DNA from: Hygrocybe punicea
Lineage: Eukaryota; Basidiomycota; Agaricomycetes; Agaricales; Hygrophoraceae
Reading direction: 5' to 3'
Length of the DNA stretch: 64,000 bases
Assembly: GCA_963556145.1 (NCBI GenBank)
Contig: OY744467.1
Coordinates: 4,340,001-4,404,000, forward strand
Positions 33,085 to 64,000 of this stretch are shown in pieces. The number at the start of each line of letters is the position of its first letter. Positions within the stretch are counted from its first letter, which is position 1. Under the pieces are notes generated by a model that did not search any database, was not told the origin of the DNA, and saw nothing but the letters and a program-made list of their open reading frames with translations. The position numbers and the translations under genes are program-made.

Positions 33085-33154
33085 GGTCGCGCGTGAAAAA
33101 AGAATTTACATAAATATTGTAACTCGCGGTGACTTCTGCGCGCCATCTCTCAAC

Positions 33155-40214: not shown

Positions 40215-40274
40215 TTTTTCCTCCTTACTGAAATCTTGACTGTCCTCAGTCAATCGCGTGGGCCGTGGGAAAGT

Positions 40275-40280
40275 CACGTG
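40275..40280 (+). promoter_or_regulatory. CACGTG box upstream of element B antisense gene
   Basis: Palindromic CACGTG about 80 bp before the ATG at 40359. The same hexamer precedes the equivalent genes of elements D and C. A promoter role is inference. Confidence 0.5.
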
Positions 40281-40358: not shown

Positions 40359-41636
40359 ATGACACACCCGATGGCCGAATTCGTCGCCGCTGCCTTTGAG
40401 GCCCTCAAGATGCATATGGATGCGAAACCAGTGGAGGGCGCTTCCGGGGAACAGTGGATCGCGTGGGGACAGGATTTCGAAGAACTCCTGGTAAGTCATC
40501 GCAACTGCGCTAACCTTTTCGCTGACTACCTTTGATCAACAGTACAATTATCTCGAGTTCGAACGAACAACCGGGCCAATAGAGAGTAGCGAGGAAGTCG
40601 AGGAGATGCGGAGGGACGCCATCGCGGCATTGGACTTCATCGAGGATGAGCAGGCGTTGCAATGGGGCAGGGAGATTTTGCTCCCAAGGTTGCATGCCAA
40701 GGCGAAGAAAGCTCAAGAAGACGTGAGGAAGGCGAAGGAGGCTGCTGAGGCGGAGCAAAAAGCGCGCAAGGCGCACGAAGCCGAGCAGAAGAAGATTCGT
40801 GAGGCCGAGATCGAGCAGGCCAGGTTGGCAAAGGAGGCTGTGGACAGAGCTGCGGAGCAAAAGGAACGCGCCAAGGTCCTATATGCGTGGTTCCTGTGCA
40901 AGGAGATCACACGGGACGAAATGGCGATGTTGATGATGGGGTCGAACAAGGGGGATGGGGTTAGCGAGATGGAAGCGGGCTCGCAGGGGGAAGAGGAGAT
41001 AGGATTTGAAACAGAATACGAAGGGCAGGGGGGGCTGTTGAAAAAGCGCAGGAGGGTCGGTCCCGGTAAGGACCTTCGCGATGTCCAAGGCAAGGTAAGC
41101 AATTAGTAATGTTTTACCATTTGTTCTGTACTCATGAGAACTTCGTAGTGCGATTGCTGCCGCGCAGCGAGGGCCGCCAACATTGTTTGCCAGTTCGACA
41201 AGCAGGATCTGCGGTGCAAGAGGTGCCGCGACGCGAAGCAGGGATGCTTTTGGAACAGGGTGAACTGGATGGGGGAGAGGAAATGCGGGCAGAACACGCC
41301 AAGGAAGCCGGTTTCCAGCAAAGGTCGCGCGGACAAGGGCAAGGCGCAGGCGGATAAGGGGAAAGGGAGGGAGAGAAACCAGCCGCCCCCCTGAGGTAAG
41401 TCGCTAAAACGACAGGGTATCGAAAGCGCTGACTGACCATCATAGCCTATATTGGTACCCATCCGCCACGAAGTGTACGGGTCATGGATGTGGAAGCGCG
41501 CAAACGCGTGTTACGGGAAGAGATCTCGGTGATTGAAGAACGGGTCGCAGTGTGGGTGAGAGCGCAGACCGAAATGAGGCGAGAGTTGGCGCAGCTGGAG
41601 GACGAGGAGGAGGAATACGGGGAAGGTGAGGAGTAA
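40359..41636 (+). pseudogene. Antisense coiled-coil / Cys-cluster gene of element B
   Basis: Runs opposite to pol of element B. Exons: 40359-40490, 40543-41094, 41149-41395 and 41446-41636. The first two encode MTHPMAEFVAAAFEALKMHM and a long Lys/Glu/Ala coiled coil (about 40690-40880). Exon 3 opens with the cysteine cluster CDCC, then NIVCQF, RCKRCRDAKQGC: C-x2-C-x9-C-x8-C-x2-C-x6-C. An in-frame TGA at 41392-41394 ends the frame just before the third intron. The next exon, still in frame, encodes another helix (EARKRVLREEISVIEER) like the C-terminus of the D copy. So it is either truncated naturally or, more likely, killed by one CGA-to-TGA change. Confidence 0.72.
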
Positions 41637-45977: not shown

Positions 45978-45981
45978 GCGT

Positions 45982-46564
45982 TGTGACGGTGAGTTCTGTT
46001 GTAGACCCGAATGGGAATCTACGAAAGGGTGATCAGCTAAGAAGTGATCAGAGGAGTTTAGTGTCTATGTAGTCTAGTCAATCCAACCCGAATCCGGGGT
46101 TCCGGATCAGAGGGGAAGTGAAGGGGGTGGAGTACGAAGACTAATATGGAGACGATACGAAGCGAGGACTAAGAAAATAGAACTGAAGGGGAGCGGTAAC
46201 CTGTATTTTCTATATAGTTTGTAGTATAAGGGTACATCTTTTATACTACTGGGAGTGATCCTGTGCTGTAGTAACTATGTACTACAAGCGAAGGCTGTAA
46301 CTGATAGGAGTAGAGTGGAGTGGAGGAATGCTATGTACTAGGAGACGGGAAACATAGATACATGATATATGACTATAAATGTACTGATTCCGGGTCGTTA
46401 GAGACATTGCAGTGCATGTAGGAACGAATCTGGAGGCGGAATCCGGAGCGGAATCGATGGAAACGACCGGAATCGGGCGGAATCGACGATACATGAATGG
46501 GAATGGACGGGGACGATGTGGGATATAAAGAGGATTCGGGTCCAGACGGCCCGGAGCCTCTACA
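45982..46564 (-). repeat. LTR of element D, left copy (3' LTR)
   Basis: 583 bp, nearly identical to 50681-51263. In the minus sense it begins TGTAGAGGCTCCGGGC and ends CACCGTCACA. Confidence 0.95.
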
Positions 46565-46902
46565 TCCGGTCAGGACTCAGATAGAGACCATCCCTGGTCG
46601 ATCCATACGAAATAACGAAGATACCGGGGTCGTGGGAATAAATGAGCGGAGGCGATGTCGAAAATGGGCGGAAACGATGGTACAACGTGAACGAGATCGA
46701 AGCCGGCGGGTATCGAAGCGTCGGGAAGCAGTGGTCCGGAGCTACTAAAAGAGGGTGGGGCGAAACGGCTGGATAAAGGAACAACGGTCACGTGATGGGG
46801 CAACAAATACAAACAAGAAAACTTTTCAACGCAACTTCAACAATCTCGACAACATCCTCAACAAGCCCAACAAACCCAACAAGTATCAATACCAACACCA
46901 AG
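46565..46902 (+). promoter_or_regulatory. Promoter and leader of element D antisense gene, with CACGTG
   Basis: The 338 bp between the LTR and the antisense ATG at 46903. It contains CACGTG at 46789-46794, 109 bp before the ATG, and a CA-rich leader (46800-46900) typical of a fungal 5' UTR. No coding sequence is needed here, although an in-frame upstream ATG occurs at 46795. Confidence 0.5.
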
Positions 46903-48395
46903 ATGTTGACGGAATACAACCATTTCCTCAATACTCTCGATGTGGAAACGCGGCAAGATTTCGAGAGCGCCGTGGCCGAGTTACTAGAAGTCGACGCGGC
47001 CGGAATCGATATCGTACACGACGGATTCGAGAATGAAGCACGGCAATGGGTGGTGAGACGACGACGGGCCATGGTAAGAGATCCCGTTTCTGTAAACGGC
47101 ACGGACTAACGATACCTGGCAGCGGAACTACAGGGGAATCTTGACGGAAATCCGAGACAATGGAATCGACGTGACAGAACCGAGGGATTTCTCGATGGGC
47201 GGAGAGATGGTGGTCGAGGTCGAGGAATGGTTGCGGAATCGTGAGGAGTACAAGAAGCGGGAACGGGAAGAGGCTGTGCGTCGGGAAGTCGAGGAAGCGT
47301 CATGTTTACAGGAGGAGAAGGAGGAGGAAAATAGGAGGGCAGAAGCGAGGAAACAACAGGTCGAGGAGGCGGAAAGGATCGAGCGGAAACGGGTGGAGGA
47401 ATCGCGTCAATACGAAGAGGAGATGAATAGGAGGGCGGAGGCAGAGAAGCGGATCGAGGAGGCGGAAAGGGCGAAGGCGGCAGAGGCAGCAAAAAGGGAT
47501 AATGCAGCCGTGGAAAGGGACCGGGAGGAGACTGCACAAACCAGCCATCACGGAAGCGAGGACGAGGAGGGCACCTGGTCCGATCAGCAACTACGAAAAT
47601 ACGAGCGGCTTCAAGCACTCAACGCAATCAAACACAAAAAGCTCAACCGGGATAAGAGGGTCAACCGGGACGATGAGACCATTCACGGGGACTACAACAG
47701 CGGCAACAATTTCTCAAATGCGAGCGGGAACGAGGATGCGGAACCGAAGGGAAAGATTCCGGGGGTAAGTGATATCTCGCGGACTCGTATATCCGTGGTG
47801 CCTAACTAATCCGTAGTACATGCAGTCGTTCCGGATCCGGCAATGCGATGCGTGCGTGACCGCCAATGCAGTTTGTCGCGGAATCGAGGGGTACGCGTGC
47901 GATCGATGCAAAAGGCTTAAACGACGTTGCGGGTTATCGACGAAGGGACCGGCCACCGGATCCGGAAAAGCGGAAAGGAAAGGGAAGGCAAAGGTGGGTA
48001 GTCCAAAGAGGAAAATCGTCGCGAAGAAAATACCAAAGCCCGTGAGGAAGCCTAGGTTGCGGACCGGAGAGGCGTCGACGAGTAAGCGGACGTTGACCGA
48101 CGTCGAACCGGATACGGAATCGGAGCGGGACGAAGGGAGACGAGGAAATCCATTCAAGCACCCGCGGATCGGAGCCGGAATCAATGACCACATCTGGGCA
48201 GTGCACAAGATGGCGACGGAAACGCAGAGGGAGATATCGACGATCGCGGACGGCCTCTCGGAGTATGTTGCGGAGGTCCATTTGAAGCTAACCCGTTGGA
48301 CGAAGGAGCTGAACCAACTACGTGCGAACCAAGCCCATATCTTTGGCCAACTGGACATGATCGACACAAAACTCGACGAAAGGAGAAGGGAGTAG
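46903..48395 (+). CDS. Antisense coiled-coil / Zn(2)Cys(6)-like gene of element D, 463 aa
   Basis: Opposite strand to gag of the same element. Exons 46903-47073, 47123-47764 and 47817-48395 join to 463 codons plus TAG, all introns in phase 0. Domain order: short N-terminal domain (MLTEYNHFLNTLDVETRQDF), a second domain starting RNYRGILTEIRDNG at exon 2, and a Glu/Arg-rich coiled coil (residues about 90-200). Exon 3 has the cluster CDACVTANAVC, then ACDRCKRLKRRC: C-x2-C-x6-C-x7-C-x2-C-x6-C, the fungal Zn(2)Cys(6) spacing. A basic region and a C-terminal coiled coil (HKMATETQREISTIADGLSE) follow. It is homologous to the 62086-63482 gene of element C with the same intron positions. Nuclear DNA binding is inference. 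Confidence 0.82.
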
Positions 48396-49538
48396 AAGGG
48401 AAATGGACGGAAAAGGAGGGGAAACGAACCGCGGGACAATGTACATAAAAATAAAATGTGTACATAATAAAATCTATAACGGAAAGGGAGAAATGGGTAA
48501 CTACATAAGCCAGAATCTGGAGGTCGAGGTGGAGGGCAGGACCGGAATACAACGGACACGGAATGGGATCGAAACAAATGGGAAACAAAGAAAACTATAA
48601 ACGGAAACGAAAATATAAAAAAGTGGAGGCCGGGAGCGTGAACGGAAAGCGGAACGGAGGACGAAAACGCAAAAATGGGTGACGGAAACGGGTCTATATC
48701 CCCACAAGAGTTTCTGAAAGAAGGTCAGAGGCGGAATGACGAGAGGAGGCGGAGAACTTCTTGCAAATGTTTGAGCGAGGTGTCGAGGGGGTGGAGGTCC
48801 AAAATGCGATGACAAAGTAGAATGAAGACGGAAACGAGGAACAATAAAAATTTGAGAACCGGAGTGCCGACACCAACACGATCCCATATAACGGGTGTGC
48901 CGCGTGATGGGTCTAAAAATGACGGGGTGCCCCAAGCGGGCGAAGACAGAACCGACAACGATACGGGAGCGGAAACGATGAGGGGAACCGGGAACGAAGG
49001 GGTCGACATAACGGAATCGGAACCGGAATCAAAATCAAATAAAAGGGGAGGAATGGGGTCCGGAATGGGAACGGGTACGGAATACTCAACCAAAGTCGAC
49101 GGAATCTCAGTAGACGGTGACGGAGGACAATATGGTGACAATATCGGGGACGGAATGTCTATTTCTGGAGAATCCAATGACAATGGGAGCGGGTCCAGTA
49201 CGAGTTCATGGACGGAAAGCGGAGGGGTCGAATCCGGAGACGACGTGGACGAAATAGGAAATGAATTGGATAGGATGACGATGTCTGTGTCAATGACGTA
49301 TCGAGGGGTGATGTCTTGTCCTGTGTGTAGAACAACGTGGTCCACCTGATGTCGGTATTCATCCAAGAAAGGGTATCATTGTAAACGAGTGTGGGAGGTA
49401 TCAAGATTATAGATGGAAAAGGATAAATGAACGTGGGTCCAGGTTTCGAGTCATGGCATGAGTTACAAGCTGTGGGAACAAGTCGTCGGGTACTGCATTG
49501 AAGCGGTGTCGTGCGAACAATATACAATAGGGGTTGGT
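48396..49538 (-). other. Spacer of element D with Ser/Pro-rich open frame
   Basis: A minus-strand frame (49366-48725, 213 codons) is rich in Ser, Pro, Asp and Ile/Leu (PSPILSPYCPPSPSTEIP) and resembles the low-complexity leader of gypsy gag proteins. It has no recognisable domain. It may be a leftover of a second gag copy, or non-coding. Confidence 0.4.
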
Positions 49539-50486
49539 TCACTGTTTGGGAAGTCGTATGGTCTGTGGTCGAAGTCCAAAAGAGTATGCTCCGGCAATGG
49601 TCGGATTAGAGAGAACAGTGACCGGCATCGATAAATCGGGAATGGGATCGGACGGGGACAACACGGGACTGGACGACAATACCTGTAAACAAATGACGGT
49701 CTCGACGGGCACCGGAATGGACAGGGACGGAATATGCGATAAAGGGGACGGAGTATACGTAGGACCGGAATGAACATGGGCGACGGAACGAACGACGTTG
49801 GGCGGGATCGAGGTCAGAATCGGGACCGGAGATGACAAAGCTATGACGGGTGGGGGACTGGGACCAGAATCGGGACTAGAGATGGTAACGGCAAGGGAAG
49901 GGGATTTCGGAACGGAGCGATAACCGGAAAGTAGGAATAAGGCGGCATCGTGGAAAACATCGAGCGGGTACGGATCGTCGTGGTAATGGTCAGGAAGAAG
50001 GTAATGGAGGCGTTCTTCAATACGTAGACGAAGGTCTGAGTCGAATCCGTTGGCGAAGTATGTGTTCCGTTGCTTATCCGTTAGACGGCCGTTGTCAAAC
50101 AAGACACCGGAAATGCATATGAAATCCCGGAAATATTGTCCTAAGTCCGCTTTGTTCTCTATACCGTAAGCCGATTGTCGTCGCGTAAGTTGATTGAGAT
50201 CCGAGATTGTATACCGGATGGAATCCGTAGCACCGGGATAAAAGTCGAAGACGGCACGTCGGAAAGCAATGAAGTCCTTTGATGAAGCGGCGGGTAGGGT
50301 AGACCAAAGTTCGTAATCGTCGTTATCGAGGTACCGGAGCGTGTAGCGAATCTTCATAGCGTCCGTGAGTCCACAGTCGGAGCCGAGCATGTCAATTTCG
50401 TCAAAGAAGCAGGGAAGGTTGAGTTCATTTCTGTCGAATGTTGGGGCTGAGGGATCACCTTGGAGAGGCATGAATCCGGTTGTCAT
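49539..50486 (-). CDS. Gag-like protein of element D, about 315 aa
   Basis: Minus-strand frame with the gypsy gag core: PTFDRNELNLPCFFDEIDML, YTLRYLDNDDYELWSTLPAA, ADLGQYFRDFICISGVLFD and FFANGFDSDL-like sequence. This aligns with gag of element C (FDGNPLNLNCFFEEVE, LRYASLSDYELWASLPSA). After about residue 200 it becomes Ser/Pro-rich. No zinc knuckle or protease is seen, unlike element C. The frame is open upstream of the listed ATG toward the primer-binding site, so the true start is uncertain. Confidence 0.78.
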   Translation of the reverse strand: MTTGFMPLQGDPSAPTFDRNELNLPCFFDEIDMLGSDCGLTDAMKIRYTLRYLDNDDYELWSTLPAASSKDFIAFRRAVFDFYPGATDSIRYTISDLNQLTRRQSAYGIENKADLGQYFRDFICISGVLFDNGRLTDKQRNTYFANGFDSDLRLRIEERLHYLLPDHYHDDPYPLDVFHDAALFLLSGYRSVPKSPSLAVTISSPDSGPSPPPVIALSSPVPILTSIPPNVVRSVAHVHSGPTYTPSPLSHIPSLSIPVPVETVICLQVLSSSPVLSPSDPIPDLSMPVTVLSNPTIAGAYSFGLRPQTIRLPKQ

Positions 50487-50660
50487 ATCGGGAATGTCTA
50501 AATCGGGATGCGGGTCGGAAAGCGGGTCGGGTCGAGGAGGTTCGAGGTCGAGGTCGAAGTCATAAGCGGAACTAACTAACTAGAGTCGGGTAGAAGAGGG
50601 AAACGTCATGAAAGTCAAAGCCGACTGTGGGGAGGGTATGAAAAGACAAAAGAAATAAAC

Positions 50661-50678
50661 TCCTCACGGTGGGCTCCA
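50661..50678 (-). other. Primer-binding site of element D
   Basis: Minus strand TGGAGCCCACCGTGAGGA, two bases from the LTR end at 50681. Identical to that of element A and one base different from C and H. Confidence 0.82.
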
Positions 50679-50680
50679 GT

Positions 50681-51263
50681 TGTGACGGCGAGTTCTGTTG
50701 TAGACCCGAATGGGAATCTACGAAAGGGTGATCAGCTAAGAAGTGATCAGAGGAGTTTAGTGTCTATGTAGTCTAGTCAATCCAACCCGAATCCGGGGTT
50801 CCGGATCAGAGGGGAAGTGAAGGGGGTGGAGTACGAAGACTAATATGGAGACGATACGAAGCGAGGACTAAGAAAATAGAACTGAAGGGGAGCGATAACC
50901 TGTATTTTCTATATAGTTTGTAGTATAAGGGTACATCTTTTATACTACTGAGAGTGATCCTGTGCTGTAGTAATTATGTACTACAAGCGAAGGCTGTAAC
51001 TGATAGGAGTGGAGTGGAGTGGAGGAATGCTATGTACTAGGAGACGGGAAACGTAGATACATGATATATGACTATAAATGTACTGATTCCGGGTCGTTAG
51101 AGACATTGCAGTGCATGTAGGAACGAATCCGGAGGCGGAATCCGGAGCGGAATCGATGGAAACGACCGGAATCGGGCGGAATCGACGATACATGAATGGG
51201 AATGGACGGGGACGATGTGGGATATAAAGAGAATTCGGGTCCAGACGGCCCAGAGCCTCTACA
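50681..51263 (-). repeat. LTR of element D, right copy (5' LTR)
   Basis: 583 bp, nine transitions from the left copy. It is followed on the right by the target duplication GCGT. Confidence 0.95.
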
Positions 51264-51477: not shown

Positions 51478-51658
51478 TGTGGTGAACGCGGCCTGGGTAG
51501 GCGCGGATTCGGGGTGTGCGAGATCGTTGTCACTGGGGTCAAAACCCAAAACTCTTCTTGTTTGTGACTATTTACAACAGCCACTACATACAAATAGAAC
51601 AAATAGGAAATATAGTAAAATGAGTGAATATGTACCCAGAGATATAGATGTCTCTACA
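51478..51658 (-). repeat. LTR of element H, left copy
   Basis: 181 bp, plus-strand start TGTGGTGAACGCGG and end GATGTCTCTACA. One difference (T for C) from 53803-53983. Confidence 0.95.
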
Positions 51659-51804
51659 TCCAGTAGGGACACAAATAGAGACTGTCCCCAGTCTCACACA
51701 AGGCAAGGGAGAAAGAAATAGGAAAAAGAAAAAGGGAGGGAGGGAAGGGACAATACTGAAAACAAAACAAACAAAACAAAAACAAAAACAAAAATCCAAT
51801 CAAC

Positions 51805-53874
51805 TCAACACAAATCTTCCAACACAAAGTCTTCCAACTTCTCCAACCGATCCACCAACTTTACCAACTTTTGCTCCAGAACCTTGAGGGCCTTGAGGGA
51901 TAACAATGCTGACTCGAGCGCAAGCAATGTCGCAGCAGGTATGTCGTCAGTGGCAAACGTGGACGTTGGTAGTGTGCCCGACAAGGGTGTAGTGGGTACA
52001 AAGTCATGGAGCGGCAGTGCATGGGCATAGCAGGACGGGGTCGAGCGCAGGGTCGTGGTATGGGCTACTGAATGGGCCTGCGAGGCTCCATGGGGTGGAT
52101 CGTGGGCATGCAGGGTTGACTGGGGTAGCGGGTGACATGGTGTGTTGGGGGCATCGAAGAGGGACAGGGCCGGACTCGTTTGGGACGGGAGGGGGCCGTA
52201 CAGAGGTGTGGGGGCGTGAACGTGGGCGTAGGGGCTAGTCTGTGGGTCCATTGGGGGCTCGAACATGGCGGGGGCGGCTTGTACGGCGTCACGGAGGGTG
52301 ATATGGGGGTCCTGGCGGTGGTACGCGGCTGCCGGGGGTCGAAACAAGAGCGGAACGGGGGCGGATGTGGCGGAATTGGTCAAAAACAAGGTATGTTTGG
52401 GGCTGGCGCGGGTTTCTGGGGACGGCGGGGGCTCAGACGGCGGGGGCGTGTCACGGATGGCCTCTGGGGACAACGGCGAGGGCGGAGACGTGGACGGCTG
52501 GCGACACAAGGGTGAAACGAGGGCGGATACGCTGGGACAGGTCAAAAATGGCGTCCGTTGAGTGTCGGCACGGTTTTCTGGAGACGGCGCGGGGACAGAC
52601 GGCGGGGGCGTGTAACGGTTCGCCTCTAGGGATGACGTCGAGGCCGTGGACGCGAACGCGGGGCGAAACGGGGGTGAAACGGAGGCAGACGCGCCGGGAC
52701 GCGTGGAAATCGGCCTTGGGCGCGCGCGGAGGCGTTTTCCTGGGGATGGTGCGCGTTCAAACGACGGGTGTACGTCGTGGCTTGCATCCGGGGACGACGG
52801 AGAGGGCGTAGACGCTGACGGCAGGCGAATCGAGGGCGAAACGAGGGTGGACACGGCTGGAAATGGGTTGGTGGATGAAGGGGGCAACGGCGAGGGCGAT
52901 TTCGGGTTCGGCTCTGGCCCAAATGTTGGCGGCGTGGCGTGGCTCGTTGCTGGGGATAACGGCGAGGCCGTTGACGCAAACGGGGGGCGATTCGGGTCTG
53001 AAACGGGGGGGAACGCGTTGATACGCGCATTATCGTCGCGTTGGCGCGCGCGGACGCATTTTTCCGGGGACGGCGCGGGCGCAGACGATGGCGGCGTGTG
53101 TTGGAACATCGCTGGGGATGATTGCGAGGGCGTAGGCGCAAACGGCGGGCGAAACGAGACGGAAACGGAGGTGGACACGTCAATACGCGTCCTACCCTCG
53201 CGTTGGCGCGCGCGGACGCGTTTTCCTGCACGGCAACCACGGGAACGACGGGGGGCATACCTAAAGGTGCACATGCAACAGCCGTTGCATGGCGGGCGTT
53301 TTCCTTCATCTACAGGGCGTCCGTTACTCGTTTGATGCGCGAGACGCGCTCCATGTTGGACGGGCTCGTTGCGGCCGTTTTGGGGCTTTCCGGGCGCGGT
53401 TTTTCGAGCGGGATCTGTGGGGCGTTGAATACCGGGTCCGTTGGATGTGTTGAAATGAGTGGAGGTGGCGGGATTAGTGAAATAAATGGGAAATGCGGAG
53501 GGGGGGATGTATTGAACACCGTGTGACGTGGCTGTGATGCCGTGACAAAAAGGCAAAAGAGCCGTGTTCTGCAGCCAAGGAGGCGCAACTGGTACAAAGA
53601 AAGTATACTGAGGTGTCGAAAACATCGGGGATGGGTCTAAGAGCTGACAGAAGACTAGGGGTGCTCGAAATGCTGACGAATACGGGGCGCTGTTGACTAT
53701 GGGGCGCTGTTGCTGCCAGAAAGAGAGAGAAAGGTGTAAAAATGGTGAATTCAAAGAGGGAAAGGTGAAGTGAGCTTGACACTCCTCGCGGTGGGCTCCA
53801 GATGTGGTGAACGCGGCCTGGGTAGGCGCGGATTCGGGGTGTGCGAGATCGTTGTCACTGGGGTCAAAACCCAA
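51805..53874 (-). CDS. Proline/serine-rich tandem-repeat protein of element H, up to 689 aa
   Basis: One open minus-strand frame covers nearly the whole element. Its first ATG (53874) lies inside the LTR; an internal start at MFSTPQYTFFVP is possible. Residues about 215-510 contain five or six degenerate repeats of about 53 residues, built on the pattern KRVRARQR, SVS-FRPPFA, SP-, TPPSSAPAPSPE. A segment before the repeats (NGCCMCTFRYAPRRSRGCRA) has four Cys and is basic. The C-terminus (ALLSLKALKVLEQKLVKLVD and RLEKLEDFVLED) is a predicted coiled coil. The function is unknown; the long intact frame in a young element suggests it is used, perhaps as a structural protein. Confidence 0.6.
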   Translation of the reverse strand: MGFDPSDNDLAHPESAPTQAAFTTSGAHREECQAHFTFPSLNSPFLHLSLSFWQQQRPIVNSAPYSSAFRAPLVFCQLLDPSPMFSTPQYTFFVPVAPPWLQNTALLPFCHGITATSHGVQYIPPSAFPIYFTNPATSTHFNTSNGPGIQRPTDPARKTAPGKPQNGRNEPVQHGARLAHQTSNGRPVDEGKRPPCNGCCMCTFRYAPRRSRGCRAGKRVRARQREGRTRIDVSTSVSVSFRPPFAPTPSQSSPAMFQHTPPSSAPAPSPEKCVRARQRDDNARINAFPPVSDPNRPPFASTASPLSPATSHATPPTFGPEPNPKSPSPLPPSSTNPFPAVSTLVSPSIRLPSASTPSPSSPDASHDVHPSFERAPSPGKRLRARPRPISTRPGASASVSPPFRPAFASTASTSSLEANRYTPPPSVPAPSPENRADTQRTPFLTCPSVSALVSPLCRQPSTSPPSPLSPEAIRDTPPPSEPPPSPETRASPKHTLFLTNSATSAPVPLLFRPPAAAYHRQDPHITLRDAVQAAPAMFEPPMDPQTSPYAHVHAPTPLYGPLPSQTSPALSLFDAPNTPCHPLPQSTLHAHDPPHGASQAHSVAHTTTLRSTPSCYAHALPLHDFVPTTPLSGTLPTSTFATDDIPAATLLALESALLSLKALKVLEQKLVKLVDRLEKLEDFVLEDLC
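53783..53800 (-). other. Primer-binding site of element H
   Basis: Minus strand TGGAGCCCACCGCGAGGA, identical to the site of element C at 55404-55421. Confidence 0.85.
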
Positions 53875-53983
53875 AACTCTTCTTGTTTGTGACTATTTAC
53901 AACAGCCACTACATACAAATAGAACAAATAGGAAATATAGTAAAATGAGTGAATACGTACCCAGAGATATAGATGTCTCTACA
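53803..53983 (-). repeat. LTR of element H, right copy (5' LTR)
   Basis: 181 bp, followed by the target duplication ACGC at 53984-53987. Confidence 0.95.
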
Positions 53984-54495: not shown

Positions 54496-54606
54496 TGATA
54501 CGCAGTCTCTCCCTTTGGGCACAGAATCTCTCATATGGTCAATTCTACTTTCCCTACGACTCTTCCGCAGTCCCGCATACATGCGAAACATCAGCGCGCC
54601 GCCCGC
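54496..54606 (-). repeat. Inverted repeat X, right copy (matches 40104-40214 reversed)
   Basis: Reverse complement of the segment upstream of the element B antisense gene. Element C begins directly after it at 54607. Confidence 0.8.
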
Positions 54607-55401
54607 TGTAGAGGGTCCTCGACCCTCTGAGGCCGTAACATCGATATCTAGCGAATCCGCTCGAACCCGACGTCTCTAGCAGTCTACGCTCGAACCCGAC
54701 GTAACCCGACGCAACCCGATGCATACCGACTAGCATGGCCGCTCACGTACCTGGTCGGTCTATCTCATAAACTCACGGAACTTCAAATATCGAAGATAGA
54801 TCTCATCGGACTGGGATCCCGACATCGGACTTGCCTTATTCACGCCTAGCGTCTCCCTTATGGGGATATAGTAAAGTATATTGCATCTTTTACGGTTTTT
54901 CATATCTTCCACCCATTTTCCCTGTCATCGTCGCCTCGCAACGCTCTTCCTACTTCCCCATTTTTATTCTCCTTTGTCTCCTCTCATCGGCCGAGGACTC
55001 TCGTCCGAATCTAGGTACACAAATTTGTAGTATAAAAACGGTGCCCAAGCGCCGTCTCAAAATAAGAAACCAGTTCCCCCATTTCCTCTCTCTGAGAATT
55101 AAGTCTCTCAGTAAATTCCATCGCACACATTGCTCGTTGGATTCCTCGACGCCCTCCCCGTCGTTCTACCGCCTTTATCTCTACGTTTCTCGTCACCCGA
55201 CACCCGACCCGCCGTACCCGACATCGTCAGCTTCGTTGGCTTCGATCGGTCTCGATAGATTTCAGTAGTTTACTCGGCGGCTTCTTACTTTTTATATCCT
55301 ATTATCTTACTGAAGCTTGTTAGACTATTCCTAGTCACTTCTACACTGACCTCTCAGGCTTAGGATCATTATTCCGCAGCCACCCCGACCTCGCCTTTAC
55401 A
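54607..55401 (+). repeat. 5' LTR of element C, 795 bp
   Basis: Begins TGTAGAGGGTCCTCG and ends CGCCTTTACA (TG...CA). Its start recurs at 63653. Confidence 0.92.
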
Positions 55402-55403
55402 TC

Positions 55404-55421
55404 TGGAGCCCACCGCGAGGA
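55404..55421 (+). other. Primer-binding site of element C
   Basis: TGGAGCCCACCGCGAGGA, two bases after the LTR. The leading TGG fits the CCA end of a tRNA primer; I cannot name the tRNA. Confidence 0.85.
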
Positions 55422-55719
55422 ATAGTCTAGCACCACCATAGCTTCCTCTTCCCATATCCCTCCCTCTGACCGTCGTCTTCGAGATCTTCCTCGAAGAACT
55501 CTTCAACAAGAACTCTCTTTAGCCGCCTTCGACCCGACAATCGACGACGACTTCTTCCAGCTAGTACCCGACCACCTCGCTTGACATAACAATCTCCCGC
55601 TCGTCTCAGGGTCAAACACCCCCCTATATCTTTCATCCAACAGTCTCGAATCGGTCGATATACCGATAATTACCATCACACCCGACTCATCCGATCTCAG
55701 TTCGACACCCGCATCGCCT

Positions 55720-58236
55720 ATGTCCCCGACTTCGACCTCGTTAGAACCCCCGTCCACGTCTTCGCTCTCGATATCGAAAACTCCGTCATCGTCATCGTCT
55801 CCGTCTTCGCTCTCGACATCGAATAATCCGTCATCGTCATCGTCCCCGTCATCGTCATCGCCTACGCCGTCATCGTCCCCGTCATTGTCTTCGCCTACGC
55901 CGTCATCGTCCACGTTACCCAACCCGCTCATCGCACACCCGACAACCGCTTCATCGACATCTCAGCTCCTTCCACCCACAATGACTTCGACCTCTGGATC
56001 CTCGACTGCTCCCCACGTTACCGCTCCCCATGTTACTCCACGACAAATGCCCGCTCGCGGTCACTCCACGGCCCCGACCTTCGACGGGAACCCGCTCAAT
56101 TTAAACTGTTTCTTCGAAGAAGTCGAGATACTTGCTGCCGATGCCGCTCTCGACGATGCAGGACGCATTAAGCATAGTCTGCGCTACGCGTCGCTTAGCG
56201 ACTACGAGCTTTGGGCAAGTTTGCCTAGCGCGACCGGCGTCGATTATGCCGCATTCAAGAAGAGCGTACTCGTGCTATACCCGGGTACGGAAGACGATCA
56301 CCGGTACACTATGGCGGATCTCGACCGTCTTATGCACACCCAAACCGCTTACGGTATCCGTACCCACGCCGAACTTGGCGAATATTACCGCGAGTTCATC
56401 CGGATCTCGGGATTCCTCTTAGACAAGGGTCGAATCTCTCCCCGAGAACGCAACATCGCGTACGAGAACGGCTTCCATGTCGAGCTTAAAAAGGACATCA
56501 AAACCCGTCTGCAGTACCAAAAGCCGAACCATTTCCATAGCGACCCTTACGACTTCCAGGACTTCCACAATTGCGCCCACTTCCTGCTGGCCGGAACCGC
56601 GGCCGAACCGTCCACCGTCTCTCATCTTTCGTCAACGTCGCCTGCCGCCATCCAGTACTCGACTCCAATGGAACCCGCCACCCGCTACCCGCCACCCGCT
56701 CGCTATGACCCGGTCATTCCTAAAGCGGAACCGGTCGAACCTAACGTATCCGACCTATTTCGTCTCGTTTCGGAACAACTCGCCGTCCTCACGCAAGCCC
56801 TCACCGAACGCAACAACCCCCCAAAGCCGTGTGCAAATAGGGCTGAGCCGACCACCGCGGGACAGGGTTTCACCAATTTCAACTGCCTCTTTTGCGATGA
56901 CCCGTTCCATCGTATACGCGATTGTCCTATTTGCGAGCAGTACACTCGAGACGGGATATGCCGCAAGAACGAGCACGGCCGCATCGTGTTGCCTAACGGA
57001 ATGTATCTTCCAAAGGCTATCGTTGGCAAAAATATGAGGGAACGCTTCGACGCGTGGCACGCACAGAACCCCGGCAACCGCGCTCCCCCTGCCCGCAACC
57101 CCACAGAACCGTTCCAACGCGACCCGCCGCCTCATGTCAAAGCTAACTTCGTCTCCGCTGTCGAAGTAACCACCTACGAACCAGAGGCCACTACCGAGTA
57201 CGCCGACATCTTTCAGTCCACGACGTCCGACATCGACGACGACAACGAACAGATTAAGGTTCTGGAAGCCGAAGTGCAGCGGCTTCGTAAACGGGTTAGA
57301 TTCGACGGTGTAGAGATCCCATCAAAGGCGAAAGGCAAGTCTAGAGAAACGTTTCCCAATCTGCCCACCACTTCCACGTCTGTCCCCGCCGCGAAACCCG
57401 CCGAGAAAACGACCAGACCTATCAACGAGCAGCCGATCACCATAGTCCCCCCTTCGAACACGCGGCCGACCGAGCCGACCGCCCTTGTACCGCGCACTCC
57501 CCAGAACCTTCCCGCATCGCACCCCCAATACCGCTACCAAGCCCCCATTGAAGATCCCGGTATCGCCAAATCCGTCATCGACCGCGCGCTCGATTCTCAA
57601 GTCTGCATTTCGCAGCGAGAACTTTTAGCCATGTCGTCCGACGCCCGCCGTCACATGAAGGACCTCACTACGTCGAAAAAGGTCACCGCCGAGAGTAACA
57701 ACGTCGAGGTCTTCCACTTTCACGCACCCGAAATCCCCACTCGCGCCTGTCAACACTGTCAGGAAAACGTCCCGCTCGTCGTCGGCCGCGACTCAGTCCC
57801 TCTCCGTGCGGTCTACCCGCTCATCAACGGCAAATCCGTATTCGAGTGCATCCTCGACAACGGTTCCATGATCATCGGCATGCGGCGCGATATTTGGGAG
57901 AAACTCGGTTACGGCCTCCAAAATATGAAGATGTGGATGCAGTCGGCAAATAAAAGCGACAACGACACCCTCGGCCGGATCGCCAACCTAAAATTCACTT
58001 TTGGCGACGTCGATCTTTTCCTCCAAGTCCAAGTCGTCGACGACGCCCCCTACGAGATCCTCATCGGCCGCCCGTTCTTCACGCTTTCCGAAGCCCTTAC
58101 GAAGGATTATAAAAACGGAGAACAACAAGTCACGATCACGGACCCAAACACCGGCGCTGTCGTCACCTTGCCCACCATCGAGCACAACCAAAAGAACCGA
58201 CGAGAGCGGTCCGACACCGGAAAGCCGGATTTTTAG
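55720..58236 (+). CDS. Gag-protease of element C, 838 aa
   Basis: Ser/Pro-rich N-terminus (about 1-110), then the gag core from MPARGHSTAPTFDGNPLNLN to about residue 310 (HNCAHFLLAGTAAEP). A zinc knuckle, CLFCDDPFHRIRDC (C-x2-C-x4-H-x4-C), lies near residue 388. The aspartic protease follows near residue 700: FECILDNGSMIIGM with Asp-Asn-Gly in place of the usual Asp-Ser/Thr-Gly, and ILIGRPFF near the end. The frame ends at TAG 58234-58236, directly after TTTTT. The start ATG is the first in a long open stretch; an ATG at MTSTSGSSTAP is possible. Confidence 0.9.
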   Translation: MSPTSTSLEPPSTSSLSISKTPSSSSSPSSLSTSNNPSSSSSPSSSSPTPSSSPSLSSPTPSSSTLPNPLIAHPTTASSTSQLLPPTMTSTSGSSTAPHVTAPHVTPRQMPARGHSTAPTFDGNPLNLNCFFEEVEILAADAALDDAGRIKHSLRYASLSDYELWASLPSATGVDYAAFKKSVLVLYPGTEDDHRYTMADLDRLMHTQTAYGIRTHAELGEYYREFIRISGFLLDKGRISPRERNIAYENGFHVELKKDIKTRLQYQKPNHFHSDPYDFQDFHNCAHFLLAGTAAEPSTVSHLSSTSPAAIQYSTPMEPATRYPPPARYDPVIPKAEPVEPNVSDLFRLVSEQLAVLTQALTERNNPPKPCANRAEPTTAGQGFTNFNCLFCDDPFHRIRDCPICEQYTRDGICRKNEHGRIVLPNGMYLPKAIVGKNMRERFDAWHAQNPGNRAPPARNPTEPFQRDPPPHVKANFVSAVEVTTYEPEATTEYADIFQSTTSDIDDDNEQIKVLEAEVQRLRKRVRFDGVEIPSKAKGKSRETFPNLPTTSTSVPAAKPAEKTTRPINEQPITIVPPSNTRPTEPTALVPRTPQNLPASHPQYRYQAPIEDPGIAKSVIDRALDSQVCISQRELLAMSSDARRHMKDLTTSKKVTAESNNVEVFHFHAPEIPTRACQHCQENVPLVVGRDSVPLRAVYPLINGKSVFECILDNGSMIIGMRRDIWEKLGYGLQNMKMWMQSANKSDNDTLGRIANLKFTFGDVDLFLQVQVVDDAPYEILIGRPFFTLSEALTKDYKNGEQQVTITDPNTGAVVTLPTIEHNQKNRRERSDTGKPDF
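58230..58236 (+). promoter_or_regulatory. Candidate -1 frameshift site at the gag stop
   Basis: Gag ends GAT TTT TAG. Slipping back one base on the TTTTT run reads TTT TTA GAA GTC and enters the pol frame (FLEVEDPEIPLGKDAPGDEK). Pol has no plausible ATG until well inside the frame, so frameshifting is the likely route to pol. Confidence 0.55.
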
Positions 58237-61200
58237 AAGTCGAGGACCCGGAGATACCTCTCGGAAAGGACGCACCGGGAGATGAGAAGCCGCCACTCGA
58301 AAGCGACCACACATATACCACGAACTATGCTTCCCTTTTGCCGTTTCCCCTAGAAGAGGACTTATGTTTTTCTATCGATTTAGATTTCTCTTCGTCTCAG
58401 CCTCAGACTGCCGCCCAGTACATTTCATTGTTGACCGATGTACAAAATCAGCTACGTACTACCGATACCCTTCCTTCGTCTTGTTCCGTCTCCGCTCCTG
58501 CGTCACATATTTCCTCTTCGAATATTTGTAACAAAGCCTCTACTGAACACGCTACTTATATCTCGTATACCACCCCCCCTACCAGGGACCTAAAAGGAGT
58601 CGTTACCAAGAAAAAGTATAAGAAGGTAGCCGATTGTATCCGCCCAATTTCTACCACTCTCCCCGACGAATACCGCATCATACGCGAGATCACCGGCGAC
58701 CCGCTAGCCGATTTACCCACGCTCCCGACTCACCCGCCCGACTTTACACCCGGCACCCGCTATACCCAGGAACGACACGACGCGATGCCGATGAACCCGG
58801 ATGGATTCCTTTGGCCTGAGGAAGAAAAACTCGGCCACCATATCATCAAAACGCAAGAAGCCGCCTTCGCCTGGAACGAATCCGAGAAAGGCCAGTTCAA
58901 TACGGACTACTTCCCGCCGATCCACATTCCCACCGTACCGCACGACCCGTGGGTCCATCACAATATCCCAATCCCACCCGGCATCCTTAACGAAGTCATC
59001 GGCATCATCAAAGACAAAATTAACGCCGGTACCTATGAACCCTCGAATTCATCATATCGCTCCCGCTGGTTTTGCGTTTTGAAAAAGGACGGGAAGTCTC
59101 TTCGAATCGTCCACGATCTACAGCCGCTTAACGCCGTCACTATCCGCGATCCCGCCGTACCGCCCATGACCGAACACTTGGCCGAGGCCTTTGGCGGCCA
59201 CTCTTGCTACGCTTCCTTTGACCTCTTCGTCTCTTTCGACCAACGCCTCATCCACCCCTCGTCTCGGGACTATATGACTTTTCAGTCTCCACTCGGAACG
59301 CTTCGACTTACGCGGATTGCTATGGGATACACAAATTCCCCGCAGATCCTACACGGTGACTCCACGTACATCCTCCGTGACGAAATCCCTCATCTTGCCG
59401 TTCCGTATATGGACGATATTCCCGTTAAAGGGCCTCCAACCCGCTACGAGCAACCCGACGGTACCTACGAGACTATACCCGAGAACCCGGCAATCCGACG
59501 TTTCATTTGGGAACACTTCCAAGGTGTCAACCGCGTCATCCAGCGTTTCCGCTATGTCGGCGGTACCTTCAACGGCAAAAAACTCGAGTTGTGTCGACCC
59601 TCAGTCATCGTTGTTGGCCACCGATGCACATACGAAGGAAGAGTAGCCGATGACTCCAAAGTACAGAAGATTCGCGATTGGCCACTGCCGACCAACCTCA
59701 CCGAAGTTCGCGCCTTTCTCGGTATCTGCGGCGTCTTGCGTATTTTTATCAAGGACTTCTCGCTTCACTCCCGACCCCTCGTCCGCCTTACCCGCAAAGG
59801 TATACCCTTCGAATTTGGTGAAGAAGAAGAGACCGCCGTCGACTACCTCAAAAACGCCGTCATTACGTCGCCAGCGCTGCGCGCTATCGACTACACGCGT
59901 GAATGGGAAGTGATTCTCGCCGTCGATTCATCCGTTCTTGGAGTCGGCTTCGTTCTTATGCAAATCCGCGCCGACGGAAAGCGCTATCCGAATCGCTTTG
60001 GTTCAATATCGTGGAACGAACGTGAAGCCCAATACTCTCAGTCCAAGCTCGAGCTTTACGGTCTCTTCAGGGCCCTCCGCGCCTATCGGATTTTCATTAT
60101 CGGCGTCCGCAACCTCACCGTTGAAGTCGACGCGAAGTACATAAAAGGGATGCTCAACAACCCCGACATTCAGCCCAATGCAACGATCAACCGATGGATA
60201 GCCGGCGTGCTCTTATTTGACTTTAGACTCGTTCACGTACCCGCTTCCGCACACGGTGCACCCGACGGACTCTCCCGACGTCCCCGCGCTGCAGAAGACC
60301 CCGAGGAGATCAACGACTCCGACGATTGGCTCGACCACTCCTACGGTTTCTTTATGGAAGTCGTCAACTACCGACCCGTCCCCATACCGTCTAAGCCGAT
60401 TGCCGTATGCGGCCGCTGCCGTGCCACAGCCGACCGACTCCAAGAATTACCGGCCGTCCTCGTCTACACAAATCAGGAAGCCGTTTCTGACATACCACGA
60501 TCCGATAAAGCCCGCGCGGCCGACGTTCGTCTTGCCCTCGTCGAGACTTGGTTACGAGATCTAACCCGACCCGCGAACTTCACGGACGAAGAATACCGTC
60601 TGTTCCTACGATACGCCCTTGAATTCTTCGTCACCGATAACAAGCTTTGGCGCAAAGACCGTCACGGAAAACACAAACTCGTCATACCGCCCGACCGCCG
60701 GCTTCAGTTACTCAAAGACGCTCATGACTCTCTCGGCCACAAAGGTATATTCTCCGTCTGCGCTCGGCTACTCGACCGTTTCTGGTGGCCGCACCTCGAC
60801 CACGACGTCAAGTGGTACGTCCAGTCTTGCCATCAGTGCCAAGTACGGCAAATGCGTTATCATCACATTCTGCCTACCGTCGCTACACCGGCCTCGCTAT
60901 TTCGTAAAGCGTATGTCGACACAATGTTTATGCCACGATCCGGCGGCTATCGATACATCGTCCAAGCCCGTTGCTCCCTGTCCGCCTACCCTGAGTTCCG
61001 CATGTTACGCCGCGAGACCGGCTCCACCATCGGCACGTTCTTGTTCGAAGACATCTTATGCCGTTGGGACGCTCTCGAAGAAATCGTCACCGACAACGGC
61101 AAGCCGTTCGTAGAAGCGCTCGACTATCTCGCCTCCCGCTACGGTATCCGCCACATCCGCATTTCGCCCTATAACTCACAAGCGAACGGACCCGTTGAGC

Positions 61201-61886
61201 GTCGCCACCTAGATGTCCGGGAGGCCATTATGAAAAGTTGTGACGGAGATGAAAAGAAATGGCACACCGTAACCCACTCCGTATTTTGGGCCGAACGGGT
61301 CACGACACACAAAAGCCTCGGATACTCATCCTACTACATCGCACACGGAGTAGAACCGCTGTTTCCATTCGATTTTGCCGAAGCTACGTACATGGTTCCG
61401 ACGCAAGATACGATGTCTACGACCGACCTCATAGTCATCCGCGCCCGACAACTTCGTAAACGAGAAGCCGACCTCGATCGGGTCAAAGAAAAGCTTACCA
61501 AATCTCGGCTCGCGTCCGCCCGGCAATTCGAGCAGAAATACGCCAACACGATCAAAGTTTACGACTTCGAACCCGGTAACCTCGTTCTCGTCCGAAATTC
61601 ACGTATCGAAATGTCTCTCGATCGTAAAGCAAAACCGCGGTACTTTGGACCCATGGTTGTCGTCAGGAAAACAGAAGGCGGATCCTACATACTCGCCGAA
61701 CTCGACGGTGTGGTTTCTAAATCTCGATTTGCCGCTTTCCGAGTCGTACCCTACCACGCCCGCTCAAAAATATCGATACCGTTGGATGACTTCTTACAAT
61801 ATCCCGATGCCGACGATACCGATTCAAACGATCTTGATGAACCGACGTACCCGCCCTCTATAGACTCCTCACCCGACGACGATTAA
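58237..61886 (+). CDS. Pol (reverse transcriptase, RNase H, integrase) of element C
   Basis: Open in the frame one base behind gag. Reverse transcriptase: SRWFCVLKKDGKSLRIVHDL, CYASFDLFVSFDQRL and VPYMDDIPVKG with the YxDD catalytic pair (near 59406). RNase H: VILAVDSSVLGVGFVLMQ and QSKLELYGLFRALR. Integrase: zinc-binding H-x-H and CHQCQ (60739-60840), catalytic residues in AYVDTMFMP, EIVTDNGKPF and ANGPVERRH. The C-terminal tail contains NLVLVRNSRIEM then YFGPMVVVRK and ends in an acidic stretch (DSSPDDD). The domain order RT-RH-IN places it in Ty3/gypsy (Metaviridae). No damage is seen. Confidence 0.93.
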
Positions 61887-62085: not shown

Positions 62086-63482
62086 TTACAGGCGGCCGGT
62101 CTCGTAATCCCGCTTCAACATCACCAACCTTGAGGTCGACCGTTCGAGATCGACGCGAAGCCGCTGGAACTCTTGACCGAAGTGGACGAGGTGACGGTTG
62201 ACGTTGGTGCCCAGGGCTCCCAGCTCCTCCGTAAGGACCGCTAGCCGCGCCGACACTTGCTCGTAATTCTCCATCGTCAAAACGAACGGGTTCGCTGCCG
62301 AGGCCGTCCTAAGCCTTTTCGTCGGCCGCTCTTCCTCCGACTCCTCCTCGTCTTCGTCATCGTCCTCGACCGACTCCACCTCCTCGACCCGCGGTTTGCT
62401 CGTTGAGGCCCGGGCAGGCCTACTGCGGATGGGTTTTGTCGTGAACGACAGCGGCTTCCTCGTGCCGACCGCGACCTCTTTGCCCTTTCCGGTATCCACC
62501 TTGCGCCGACCCCCGCCCGTCCGGTGTGTAGCGTTAGTACATCTCTTCTTCAGCCTCCGGCATCGTTCGCACACGTAGCCCGTGACGCCTCGACACGCCT
62601 CTTGCGCCTTGACGCAGTTGGTGCAGGGTTGTAGGGGAAACGGCCCGGTGAACTGTTACCAGGATCAGTAACTAAAGAACATATGAACCGACACAAGAAC
62701 TCACCGTCGTACCAGCCAAGTCTCCGGTCTCTACGCCCGGCGTATCTACGTCTTCTACATCGGCCGGTGTCTCTGGTGCCGGGTCGACGGGGCCTTCCTC
62801 TGGCTCAACTGCGGCTTCGCCCTCCGGAATCGACTCAGTCCTTGGTTCACCCGCGACCGATGCGTTTGCTTCAGCTCGCCGTTCTTCGCTGAGCCGCCGC
62901 CGATACGCGGCTCCATCCCTTTCAACCCGGTCCGCTTCTTGATGCCAGTGCTGCTCGTGTTGTTCTATTCTAAGCTGCTCCCGCCTTTCCTCTGCCGCCT
63001 TTCGCCTTTTCTCCGCCTCCGCTCGTGCGTTTGCCTCTGCCATCCGTCTGGCCTCCTCTTCCCGCGTAGCCGCTTCTTCATCCGCCTGCCGTCTGGCTTC
63101 TTCCTGTTCCTGCCTCTCCCGGTCCGCCGCTTCTTTCAGCCACTCTTCGACATTGTTGGCGTACGATTGGCGGTCGGCCCATAACGGTGGCATTACTGGC
63201 CTCGTACCACCAGCTCGGAGTTCCGCGACGATTCCATTGTAAGCACGCTGACGGGACGACATGAGCTATCTTAAGACACGCGTAGTCAATAAGGAAACTC
63301 ACCAGCGCCTTCTTGCGGCCGCTTAACCATTGTTGGGCCATCCCCTCGTTGCCGTCCACCATCGTTACGAGGTCGTCGCTATGAAACACGGTGACCGCGT
63401 TGACGGCCTCTTCGTAGTCCGCCCGGACATCGGGTTCGATGCTTTCGACGAAAGCGAGGAAGTTGTCGTAGACTTGGGACAT
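62086..63482 (-). CDS. Antisense coiled-coil / Zn(2)Cys(6)-like gene of element C, 429 aa
   Basis: Lies between pol and the 3' LTR, on the opposite strand to gag-pol. Exons 63482-63303, 63247-62705 and 62652-62086 join to 429 codons plus TAA, introns in phase 0. N-terminal domain: MSQVYDNFLAFVESIEPDVR, aligning with the D copy. Exon 2 opens RAYNGIVAELRAGG and contains a Glu/Arg/Ala coiled coil with VEEWLKEAADRERQEQEE. Exon 3 carries CTNCVKAQEAC and VCERCRRLKKRC: C-x2-C-x6-C-x7-C-x2-C-x6-C, matching the Zn(2)Cys(6) consensus. An acidic stretch (DDDEDEEESEEE) and a C-terminal helix follow. Possible roles (inference): regulating the LTR promoter, host-gene targeting or nuclear import. It is intact. 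Confidence 0.85.
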
Positions 63483-63567
63483 TGTGAACGTGTGATGGTG
63501 TAGAGGAAAGGTCGGATCAACAACGAGAAATTTTTATTTTTATTTACTTTGCCGTTGTTTGGCCGCT

Positions 63568-63573
63568 CACGTG
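63568..63573 (-). promoter_or_regulatory. CACGTG box upstream of element C antisense gene
   Basis: Palindromic CACGTG 85 bp before the ATG at 63482, in the short stretch between that gene and the 3' LTR. Equivalent boxes occur at 40275 and 46789. Confidence 0.5.
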
Positions 63574-63652
63574 ATTGGCCACATTCGCGACCCGCATTCG
63601 GAGACCCCATATTCTCGACCACGGATGGTCTCTATTAGAAGACCCAAGGAGA

Positions 63653-64000
63653 TGTAGAGGGTCCTCGACCCTCTGAGGCCATAACATCGATATCTAGCGA
63701 ATCCGCTCGAACCCGACGTCTCTAGCAGTCTACGCTCGAACCCGACGTAACCCCACGCAACCCGATGCATACCGACTAGCACGGCCGCTCACGTACCTGG
63801 TCGGTCTATCTCATAAACTCACGGAACTTCAAATATCGAAGATAGATCTCATCGGACTGGGATCCCGACATCGGACTTGCCTTATTCACGCCTAGCGTCT
63901 CCCTTATGGGGATATAGTAAAGTATATTGCATCTTTTACGGTTTTTCATATCTTCCACCCATTTTCCCTGTCATCGTCGCCTCGCAACGCTCTTCCTACT
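63653..64000 (+). repeat. 3' LTR of element C, first 348 bp, cut by window end
   Basis: Starts TGTAGAGGGTCCTCG and follows 54607 onward with three visible differences. A short purine stretch (AAGGAGA) just before it may be the polypurine tract. Confidence 0.93.

Follow-up and report, generated by a model that had tools for sequence, protein, structure and literature searches.

The gypsy retrotransposons of Hygrocybe punicea carry an accessory gene on the strand opposite to their own genes. It is present in at least four families, and its protein is under purifying selection in B, C and D, the three families tested. We put about even confidence in the reading that this protein is a dimeric DNA-binding regulator, which would act on the 3' end of its own element. 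New here is a palindrome that four families carry some 22 bp away from the 3' LTR (family E being represented by one copy), with arms that change in step, together with an E-box. A candidate DNA target adjoins a protein under selection, and a binding assay with one protein and one site makes the question directly testable. The many copies in one genome give codon-level evidence of selection, including in a family whose examined member has no protease or pol.

The window is the whole stretch of DNA that was analyzed, 64,000 nucleotides at positions 4340001-4404000 of contig 33 in a genome of 92.2 Mb (42 contigs). Pfam places host genes at 7346-9514 (GEN1 C-terminal), 18413-19402 (PEX18/PEX21 C-terminal), 27237-28118 (allantoicase and ureidoglycolate lyase in one frame), and 32044-33105 (ribosomal S9). 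At 51478-53983, 181-bp direct repeats, 2325 bp apart, flank a minus-strand open frame of 695 aa (51805-53892) with internal 162-nt repeats and no Pfam match.

Gene D lies at 63482-62086 on the minus strand, antisense to its element, between the stop codon of pol (61886) and the start of the 3' LTR (63653). The earlier note had described a spliced gene here, and it is borne out: three exons, joined across GT..AG introns of 55 and 52 nt, encode 429 aa. Exon 1 (63303-63482) encodes the N-terminal part. Exon 2 (62705-63247) encodes a charged region that is coiled-coil-like, an assignment made by eye alone. Exon 3 (62086-62652) encodes the six-Cys cluster CTNCVKAQEACRGVTGYVCERCRRLKKRC (62539-62625), a basic tail, and a C-terminal helix. 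This helix is the only confident part of two AlphaFold predictions. The model of the cluster segment is weak (mean pLDDT 64.8) and gave no fold match. An AT-hook-like KPIRSRP in D has no counterpart in C or B and is given no weight.

Element D is delimited by a 5' LTR (54607-55401, plus strand, TG..CA, end read by eye) and a 3' LTR (63653-64000) that is cut by the end of the window; the pair shows 8 differences across 797 compared bases. The primer-binding site (PBS) TGGAGCCC starts at 55404. The gag-protease frame (55585-58236, plus strand) matches DUF4100 above the cut-off and Asp_protease_2 below it, and has a CCHC knuckle. The pol frame (58113-61886, plus strand) contains RNase H domains of the reverse transcriptase (RT) and an integrase H2C2 domain above the cut-off and rve below it; RVT_1 was not among the Pfam matches for the element. 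With its LTRs, PBS, gag, protease, and an RT-RNase H ahead of the integrase, D is a Ty3/gypsy element. A search of IMG/VR with a piece of D pol gave no confirmed relative. The element is inserted in B-like sequence, as the flank at 54496-54606 and that of locus L001 beyond 64448 both match the region upstream of B.

Element C (45980-51263, minus strand, 5284 bp, LTRs at 45980-46564 and 50679-51263) has a capsid-type gag frame (49539-50579, minus strand) that is 46% identical to D gag residues 143-344. This gag is without the CCHC knuckle that D gag has. Comparison with the D gag and pol proteins revealed no protease or pol in element C and one chance-level stretch besides gag. Gene C is antisense to its element and lies in the interval from gag to the 3' LTR. 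Its spliced frame consists of exon 1 (46903-47073), exon 2 (47123-47764), and exon 3 (47817-48395), all on the plus strand, with introns of 49 and 52 nt and the cluster at 47844-47930, and encodes 463 aa. The window copies of genes C and D are open throughout, which agrees with the claim of two intact copies, one of them in a pol-less element. The window's element C presumably needs the enzymes of another family; its PBS is common to C and D. Family C has many copies (loci L009-L018 and L039-L068), and its member in the window consists of the capsid-type gag and the antisense gene only.

Gene B has four exons on the plus strand (40359-40490, 40543-41094, 41149-41395, and 41446-41636), antisense to a B-type RT, and its window copy contains an in-frame stop at 41392-41394. 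The RT/RNase H frame of element B (43442-44941, minus strand) matches RVT_1 below the cut-off and RNase H domains above it. The presence of the gene at the same place in B, C, and D is thus confirmed, and a fourth family, E, with an RT 66-69% identical to that of B, also carries one. At one E locus (L089, G000:C35:2691200-2693700), one strand carries two six-Cys exons at a distance of about 0.9 kb, which looks like a duplication of the antisense gene.

An alignment of 387 columns shows the C and D proteins to be homologues (32% identity, probability 99.5, E 3.6e-23). Both of their introns are at identical positions, as claimed before, and in phase 0. In a profile comparison, B matches C around the cluster only (E 0.001, probability 21). 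As this match is weak, B is taken as a homologue of C and D on the strength of its place, its introns, and the order of its parts. Phase 0 introns after the N-terminal part and just before the cluster are common to B, C, D, and E. A third intron is common to B and E in the same phase. All intron borders of E were read by eye in one copy.

The whole 429-aa protein found no match in sequence searches, where coiled-coil words probably swamped the query. Exon 3 of D alone found one protein (P0001), which is without the cluster; phage records searched with this exon gave no match. Exon 3 of C as a protein query found the JGI proteins P0002-P0004 (87, 79, and 42% identity), in which the cluster is kept. 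No NCBIfam family scored above the cut-off, and Foldseek, VIA-align, and sequence searches of solved structures yielded no relative worth keeping.

The gene is closely linked to the gypsy RT among the RT matches scored. A search with B pol, in which 86 of 825 candidates were scored, gave matches assigned by identity as 36 B-type, 7 E-type, and 43 D-type (54-55% to B). An antisense gene lies within 20 kb downstream of the RT in 43/43 D-type, 33/36 B-type, and 6/7 E-type matches, a count that uses 64 of the 70 rows of one list, the six weakest left out, with RT types assigned by identity. The gap between RT and gene is 1715-1742 bp in 41 of 43 D cases and 2047-2078 bp in 20 of 33 B cases. In E it ranges from 2.6 to 14.8 kb; such wide gaps suggest insertions and make the E linkage weaker. 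These counts answer the question, raised in the earlier note, of whether matches sit antisense beside gypsy pol.

Gene D is present as DNA in at least 40 copies (40 of 263 candidates scored), all at least 96% identical, gene C in at least 40 (40 of 240), and gene B in at least 40 (40 of 55). Exon 3 gave at least 150 matches each for D (150 of 484 candidates scored) and C (150 of 502). For D, 131 of these 150 are free of stops, and 18 of the other 19 contain TGA only. Among the loci retrieved, some of which represent one copy twice, 18/18 D loci have the D LTR on the upstream side of the gene, at a distance of about 170 bp, and pol on the downstream side; the C LTR adjoins the gene in 37/40 C loci (the exceptions are L044, L056, and L065). 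The region behind the C gene resembles that of the window's C in 40/40 loci, so pol is not directly there. Eleven weak cluster matches with no listed RT nearby are E copies by their DNA. Stand-alone host genes, a concern raised at the outset, were absent from the matches listed for the D, C exon 3, and B/E exon searches.

Selection was measured on aligned copies. The loci that yielded a whole gene number 37 of 40 for C, 31 of 38 for D, and 10 of 10 for B; minus identical ones, these are 28, 28, and 10 copies. Intron lengths are nearly constant among them. Read by hand and with search-trimmed ends ignored, the frame is open throughout in 24/28 C, 19/28 D, and 4/10 B copies. One of the 19 open D copies has a 135-base in-frame deletion. 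Twenty D loci come from the low-scoring end of the 150 exon-3 matches, so the intactness of D is not that of a random sample.

Plain all-pairs dN/dS is 0.24 in C, 0.27 in D, and 0.34 in B. Because this measure ignores a strong transition bias, the variants were classed as CpG transitions, other transitions, and transversions, and a class-corrected omega was calculated against the selection-free expectation from the gene's own sequence. For variants shared by at least two copies, omega is 0.45 in C (N 109, S 115, p 1.6e-9), 0.50 in D (N 92, S 97, p 1.7e-6), and 0.59 in B (N 67, S 53, p 0.0035), where the p-values assume independent variants, yet the copies are related. These values are not near 1, and the gene is kept by selection, as the earlier note had supposed, including in family C, whose examined member is without protease or pol. 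For single-copy variants, which reflect mostly decay after insertion, omega is 0.89 in C, 0.74 in D, and 0.71 in B. A test of shared against single-copy variants gave p 6.3e-4 in C, a borderline 0.054 in D, and no contrast in B (0.53).

In C and D the constraint is specific to the spliced frame. Controls on these two gave omega of 1.38-1.68 for shared variants when the frame was shifted by one or two bases, and 0.82-1.41, with stops, in the sense-strand frames. With GT..AG kept at every intron in all 66 aligned copies (28 C, 28 D, 10 B), antisense genes with such splice signals are not a product of chance. By exon 1, 2, and 3, shared-variant omega is 0.54, 0.54, and 0.32 in C (exon 3, p 2.1e-7) and 0.29, 0.90, and 0.35 in D (exon 1, p 8.9e-4; exon 3, p 2.3e-6). 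Exon 3 is strongly constrained in both, and exon 1 likewise in D, while D exon 2 shows no clear constraint. Indels in C exon 2 are mostly multiples of three. In the same 15 D copies, shared omega is 0.26 for the antisense gene and 0.08 for a 1.3 kb piece of pol; constraint on the antisense gene is thus present but weaker than on pol. In these copies the single-copy values are low as well (antisense 0.57, pol 0.55).

The six-Cys cluster of C and D has the spacing C-x2-C-x6-C-x7-C-x2-C-x6-C, as first reported, and all six Cys are kept in 28/28 C and 27/28 D copies. The fungal Zn(2)Cys(6) spacing is C-x2-C-x6-C-x(5-16)-C-x2-C-x(6-8)-C. It is present in C, D, and P0002-P0004; the B cluster (C-x2-C-x9-C-x8-C-x2-C-x6-C, unlike C and D) and the first E cluster, which is also longer-spaced, deviate from it, with x9 and x8 between the second and third Cys, respectively. 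The Pfam profile Zn_clus (PF00172, cut-off 21) scores 11.2-15.2 bits on the window's C and D proteins, 9.6-14.1 bits on P0002-P0004, and 19.2 bits on the second-half piece of C alone. Neither first half gives a match, and the clusters of B and E give none either. The opening 14 positions of the profile, which form its canonical basic half, pair with the second half of the cluster. In Zn(2)Cys(6) domains a basic stretch lies between the second and third Cys. Here these positions read VKAQEA or VTANAV, and the basic RRLKKR or KRLKRR lies between the fifth and sixth Cys. The motifs RRLKKRC and KRLKRRC, which had been placed after the cluster, instead lie inside it, starting just past the fifth Cys and ending with the sixth. 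That the protein belongs to the Zn(2)Cys(6) family is not supported, with scores below the cut-off of 21 and the start of the profile aligned to the second half. We do not claim it; judged by sequence, the cluster resembles Zn(2)Cys(6) with its halves swapped.

Each family has one inverted repeat with arms of at least five bases and a four-base spacer between the antisense ATG and the 3' LTR. In D it is GACCA-4-TGGTC (63617-63630), 22 bp before the 3' LTR and kept in 15/15 distinct copies. In C the same palindrome (46586-46599) stands 21 bp from the 3' LTR and is exact in 25/26 distinct copies. B has TTGACTG-4-CAGTCAA (40236-40253), with a core that is kept in 10/10 copies 23 bp from the 3' LTR start, and E has TTGACTG/CAGTCAA 22 bp from the LTR start in one copy, both of these starts being placed by the sequence TGATAC and not by an LTR pair. 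In the four families the spacer reads NGGA on the element strand. The change in the arms amounts to a single event that separates C/D from B/E, in a comparison made after the motif was seen. Inverted repeats of this kind number 65 in the 64 kb window, so the weight of the palindrome lies in its place, its conservation, and its in-step change. The core GACTG-4-CAGTC occurs twice more, at 43402 and 51680, in other surroundings and with no recognized antisense promoter adjoining.

An E-box lies upstream of each antisense ATG, with CACGTG at 114 (C), 91 (D), 84 (B), and 109 (E) bp. In the putative promoter of gene D it is part of TCACGTGA (63567-63574), kept in 15/15 distinct copies. The same sequence upstream of gene C (46788-46795) is exact in 24/26 distinct copies, and the CACGTG of gene B (40275-40280) is present in 8/10 copies. 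Gene B has a second E-box 290 bp upstream. A third exact TCACGTGA in the window, at 22368, has no recognized antisense promoter adjoining. We read the E-box as a putative promoter and the palindrome as a candidate dimer site. The palindrome adjoins only the 3' LTR and has no counterpart at the 5' LTR, from which the genomic RNA is driven. Its distance is fixed to the LTR and not to the ATG, with which a role in reverse transcription also fits; the chief alternative for the palindrome is a function close to the plus-strand primer.

As RNA, the palindrome stretch folds no better than shuffled sequences, with z-scores of 0.49 (C), 0.95 (D), -0.65 (B), and -0.62 (E). The minimum-energy folds contain the hairpin in C, B, and E, and that of D does not. 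Reading the palindrome as an RNA hairpin is not supported by these folds, which leave it some probability.

The copies decay at CpG. Single-copy C-to-T change per CpG site is 0.32 in C, 0.32 in D, and 0.38 in B, compared to approximately 0.05 at other C. The 25 stops counted in aligned copies of B, C, and D are all TGA. This decay is the mark of CpG methylation or of a CpG-directed mutator, and the excess suggests that the copies are probably methylated and silenced. It makes an anti-silencing role of the protein attractive.

In the mechanism that we propose, the regulator would be made from its own spliced antisense mRNA, whose transcription may be driven by a host E-box promoter and begin at a point that separates the 3' LTR from the ATG. 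Since the gene is opposite to the genomic RNA, its introns would stay in that RNA and survive reverse transcription. The coiled-coil-like part and the C-terminal helix would hold the protein together as a dimer. DNA would be bound by the cluster and its basic half (CxRCxRLKxRC), with the palindrome beside the 3' LTR as the most likely target. Such binding might keep the promoter region of the element transcribable, or antagonize silencing by CpG methylation. The conserved palindrome, the E-box, and the CpG decay help this idea, and we infer a regulator or silencing antagonist of the kind suggested in the earlier note. The palindrome and the basic half are common to C and D, so the D product might serve C; in that case a trans-acting factor explains selection on the C gene less easily.

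Within the putative promoter of the antisense gene, the palindrome stands farther upstream than the E-box, a position that would also suit a repressor that binds there and autoregulates its own gene or limits copy number. We consider this unlikely, as self-restraint gives a pol-less element no obvious reason to keep the gene under selection. Selection shows need and not mechanism, and a needed protein could instead act on the host, in nuclear import, integration targeting, or interference with defence, and never bind the palindrome. Plant antisense ORF proteins have been proposed for nuclear steps in the available part of one review (PMC7264820). We judge this reading improbable too, since it leaves the in-step change of the palindrome arms unexplained. 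A role as nucleic-acid chaperone or as part of the particle, in reverse transcription or packaging and not in regulation, has in our view a small probability. It would accord with a basic, Cys-rich protein, with a palindrome at a fixed 21-23 bp from the LTR near the plus-strand primer, with a palindrome hairpin in three of four RNA folds, and with the knuckle that C gag lacks and D gag has. However, in D the knuckle is present alongside the antisense gene, and an antisense gene of its own would be an odd route to a structural protein.

The antisense transcript could matter in place of the protein, as double-stranded or non-coding RNA with incidental open frames, and such roles are described for other elements (PMC7264820, available part). 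This is very improbable given codon-specific constraint in the spliced frame, but not in the shifted or sense frames, and C exon-2 indels that are mostly multiples of three. Introns suggest a cellular origin, yet we can practically dismiss a captured host gene riding as a neutral passenger: the gene keeps its place across families whose RTs are as little as 54-55% identical, is under purifying selection in three families, and has no host relative among the matches listed.

HBZ of HTLV-1 is a bZIP protein. It is like the present protein in being encoded antisense, in its case by a retrovirus, and it is nuclear (PMC11963269, in the passages available); the antisense promoter of HTLV-1 lies in the 3' LTR, according to the available part of PMC7264820. 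Here, in contrast, the whole D protein has no bZIP match in Pfam, and the putative promoter lies between LTR and gene. VANDAL elements are DNA transposons with a sense gene. The VANC proteins that they encode in Arabidopsis act against silencing in a sequence-specific manner through short target motifs in the element, and proteins and targets evolve together between related elements (PMC5735166, as excerpted). If the proposed reading is true, the present protein is likewise element-encoded and sequence-specific, with target motifs inside the element. The likeness is drawn from the description in that excerpt, and it differs in that VANC targets are often tandem repeats and the carriers are DNA transposons. 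Fungal DNA transposons with a TET/JBP gene likely escape silencing (PMC12730594, in part), and the available text of PMC5408684 holds no nearer precedent for element-encoded anti-silencing. The full extension of our reading, namely a set of sequence-specific regulators encoded by fungal retrotransposons in which a swapped-half cluster reads the palindrome and changes together with it, is kept after the loss of pol, and acts against silencing in the manner of VANC or HBZ, is tentative and rather doubtful.

The likeness to fungal Zn(2)Cys(6) factors consists of six Cys at canonical spacing (C and D) and a half-motif, CxRCxRLKxRC, that scores against Zn_clus. The present proteins differ from these factors in that the basic half comes second instead of first, the Pfam score is below the cut-off, the coiled-coil-like part precedes the cluster, and the whole D protein has no regulatory middle domain by Pfam.

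Plant gypsy elements carry antisense ORFs between pol and the 3' LTR, the aORF-3R type, which includes Grande gene23, RIRE2, and Retand TRP28; gene23 comes with a promoter of its own, and its product is nuclear (PMC7264820 and PMC11963269, in the parts available). What antisense genes do in gypsy elements is described as unknown in the available part of a 2020 review (PMC7264820). The gene described here shares with these ORFs its antisense orientation, its place between pol and the 3' LTR (D and B), its presence in most copies, and its conservation across families. It differs by its six-Cys cluster and by its split into three or four exons; neither "intron" nor "zinc" appears as a word in the main text, as available, of PMC7264820 and PMC11963269. 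Pfam found no TRP28 match in the whole D protein, C exon 3, or one B exon.

Zhao 2011 is reportedly the source cited for brtn, an antisense gene of fungi. It belongs to Boty-like gypsy elements of Botrytis and Sclerotinia (PMC7264820 and PMC8365987, available passages) and occupies the same place in the Boty elements of Botrytis (passages also in PMC4227169). The earlier note knew of no report of a zinc-cluster factor encoded antisense in fungal gypsy elements. A fungal gypsy antisense gene is thus already in print, and the part of the claim that concerns the zinc cluster stands, as no six-Cys or zinc-cluster antisense gene of a fungal gypsy element was among the matches listed in a literature search by title and start of abstract with few subscription papers. 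Like the present gene, brtn is an extra antisense gene between pol and the 3' LTR of a fungal gypsy element; the two are compared by description only, and the available passages do not mention a zinc cluster for brtn. With antisense gypsy genes known as aORF-3R in plants and as brtn in Botrytis, the present gene is a variant of a known arrangement.
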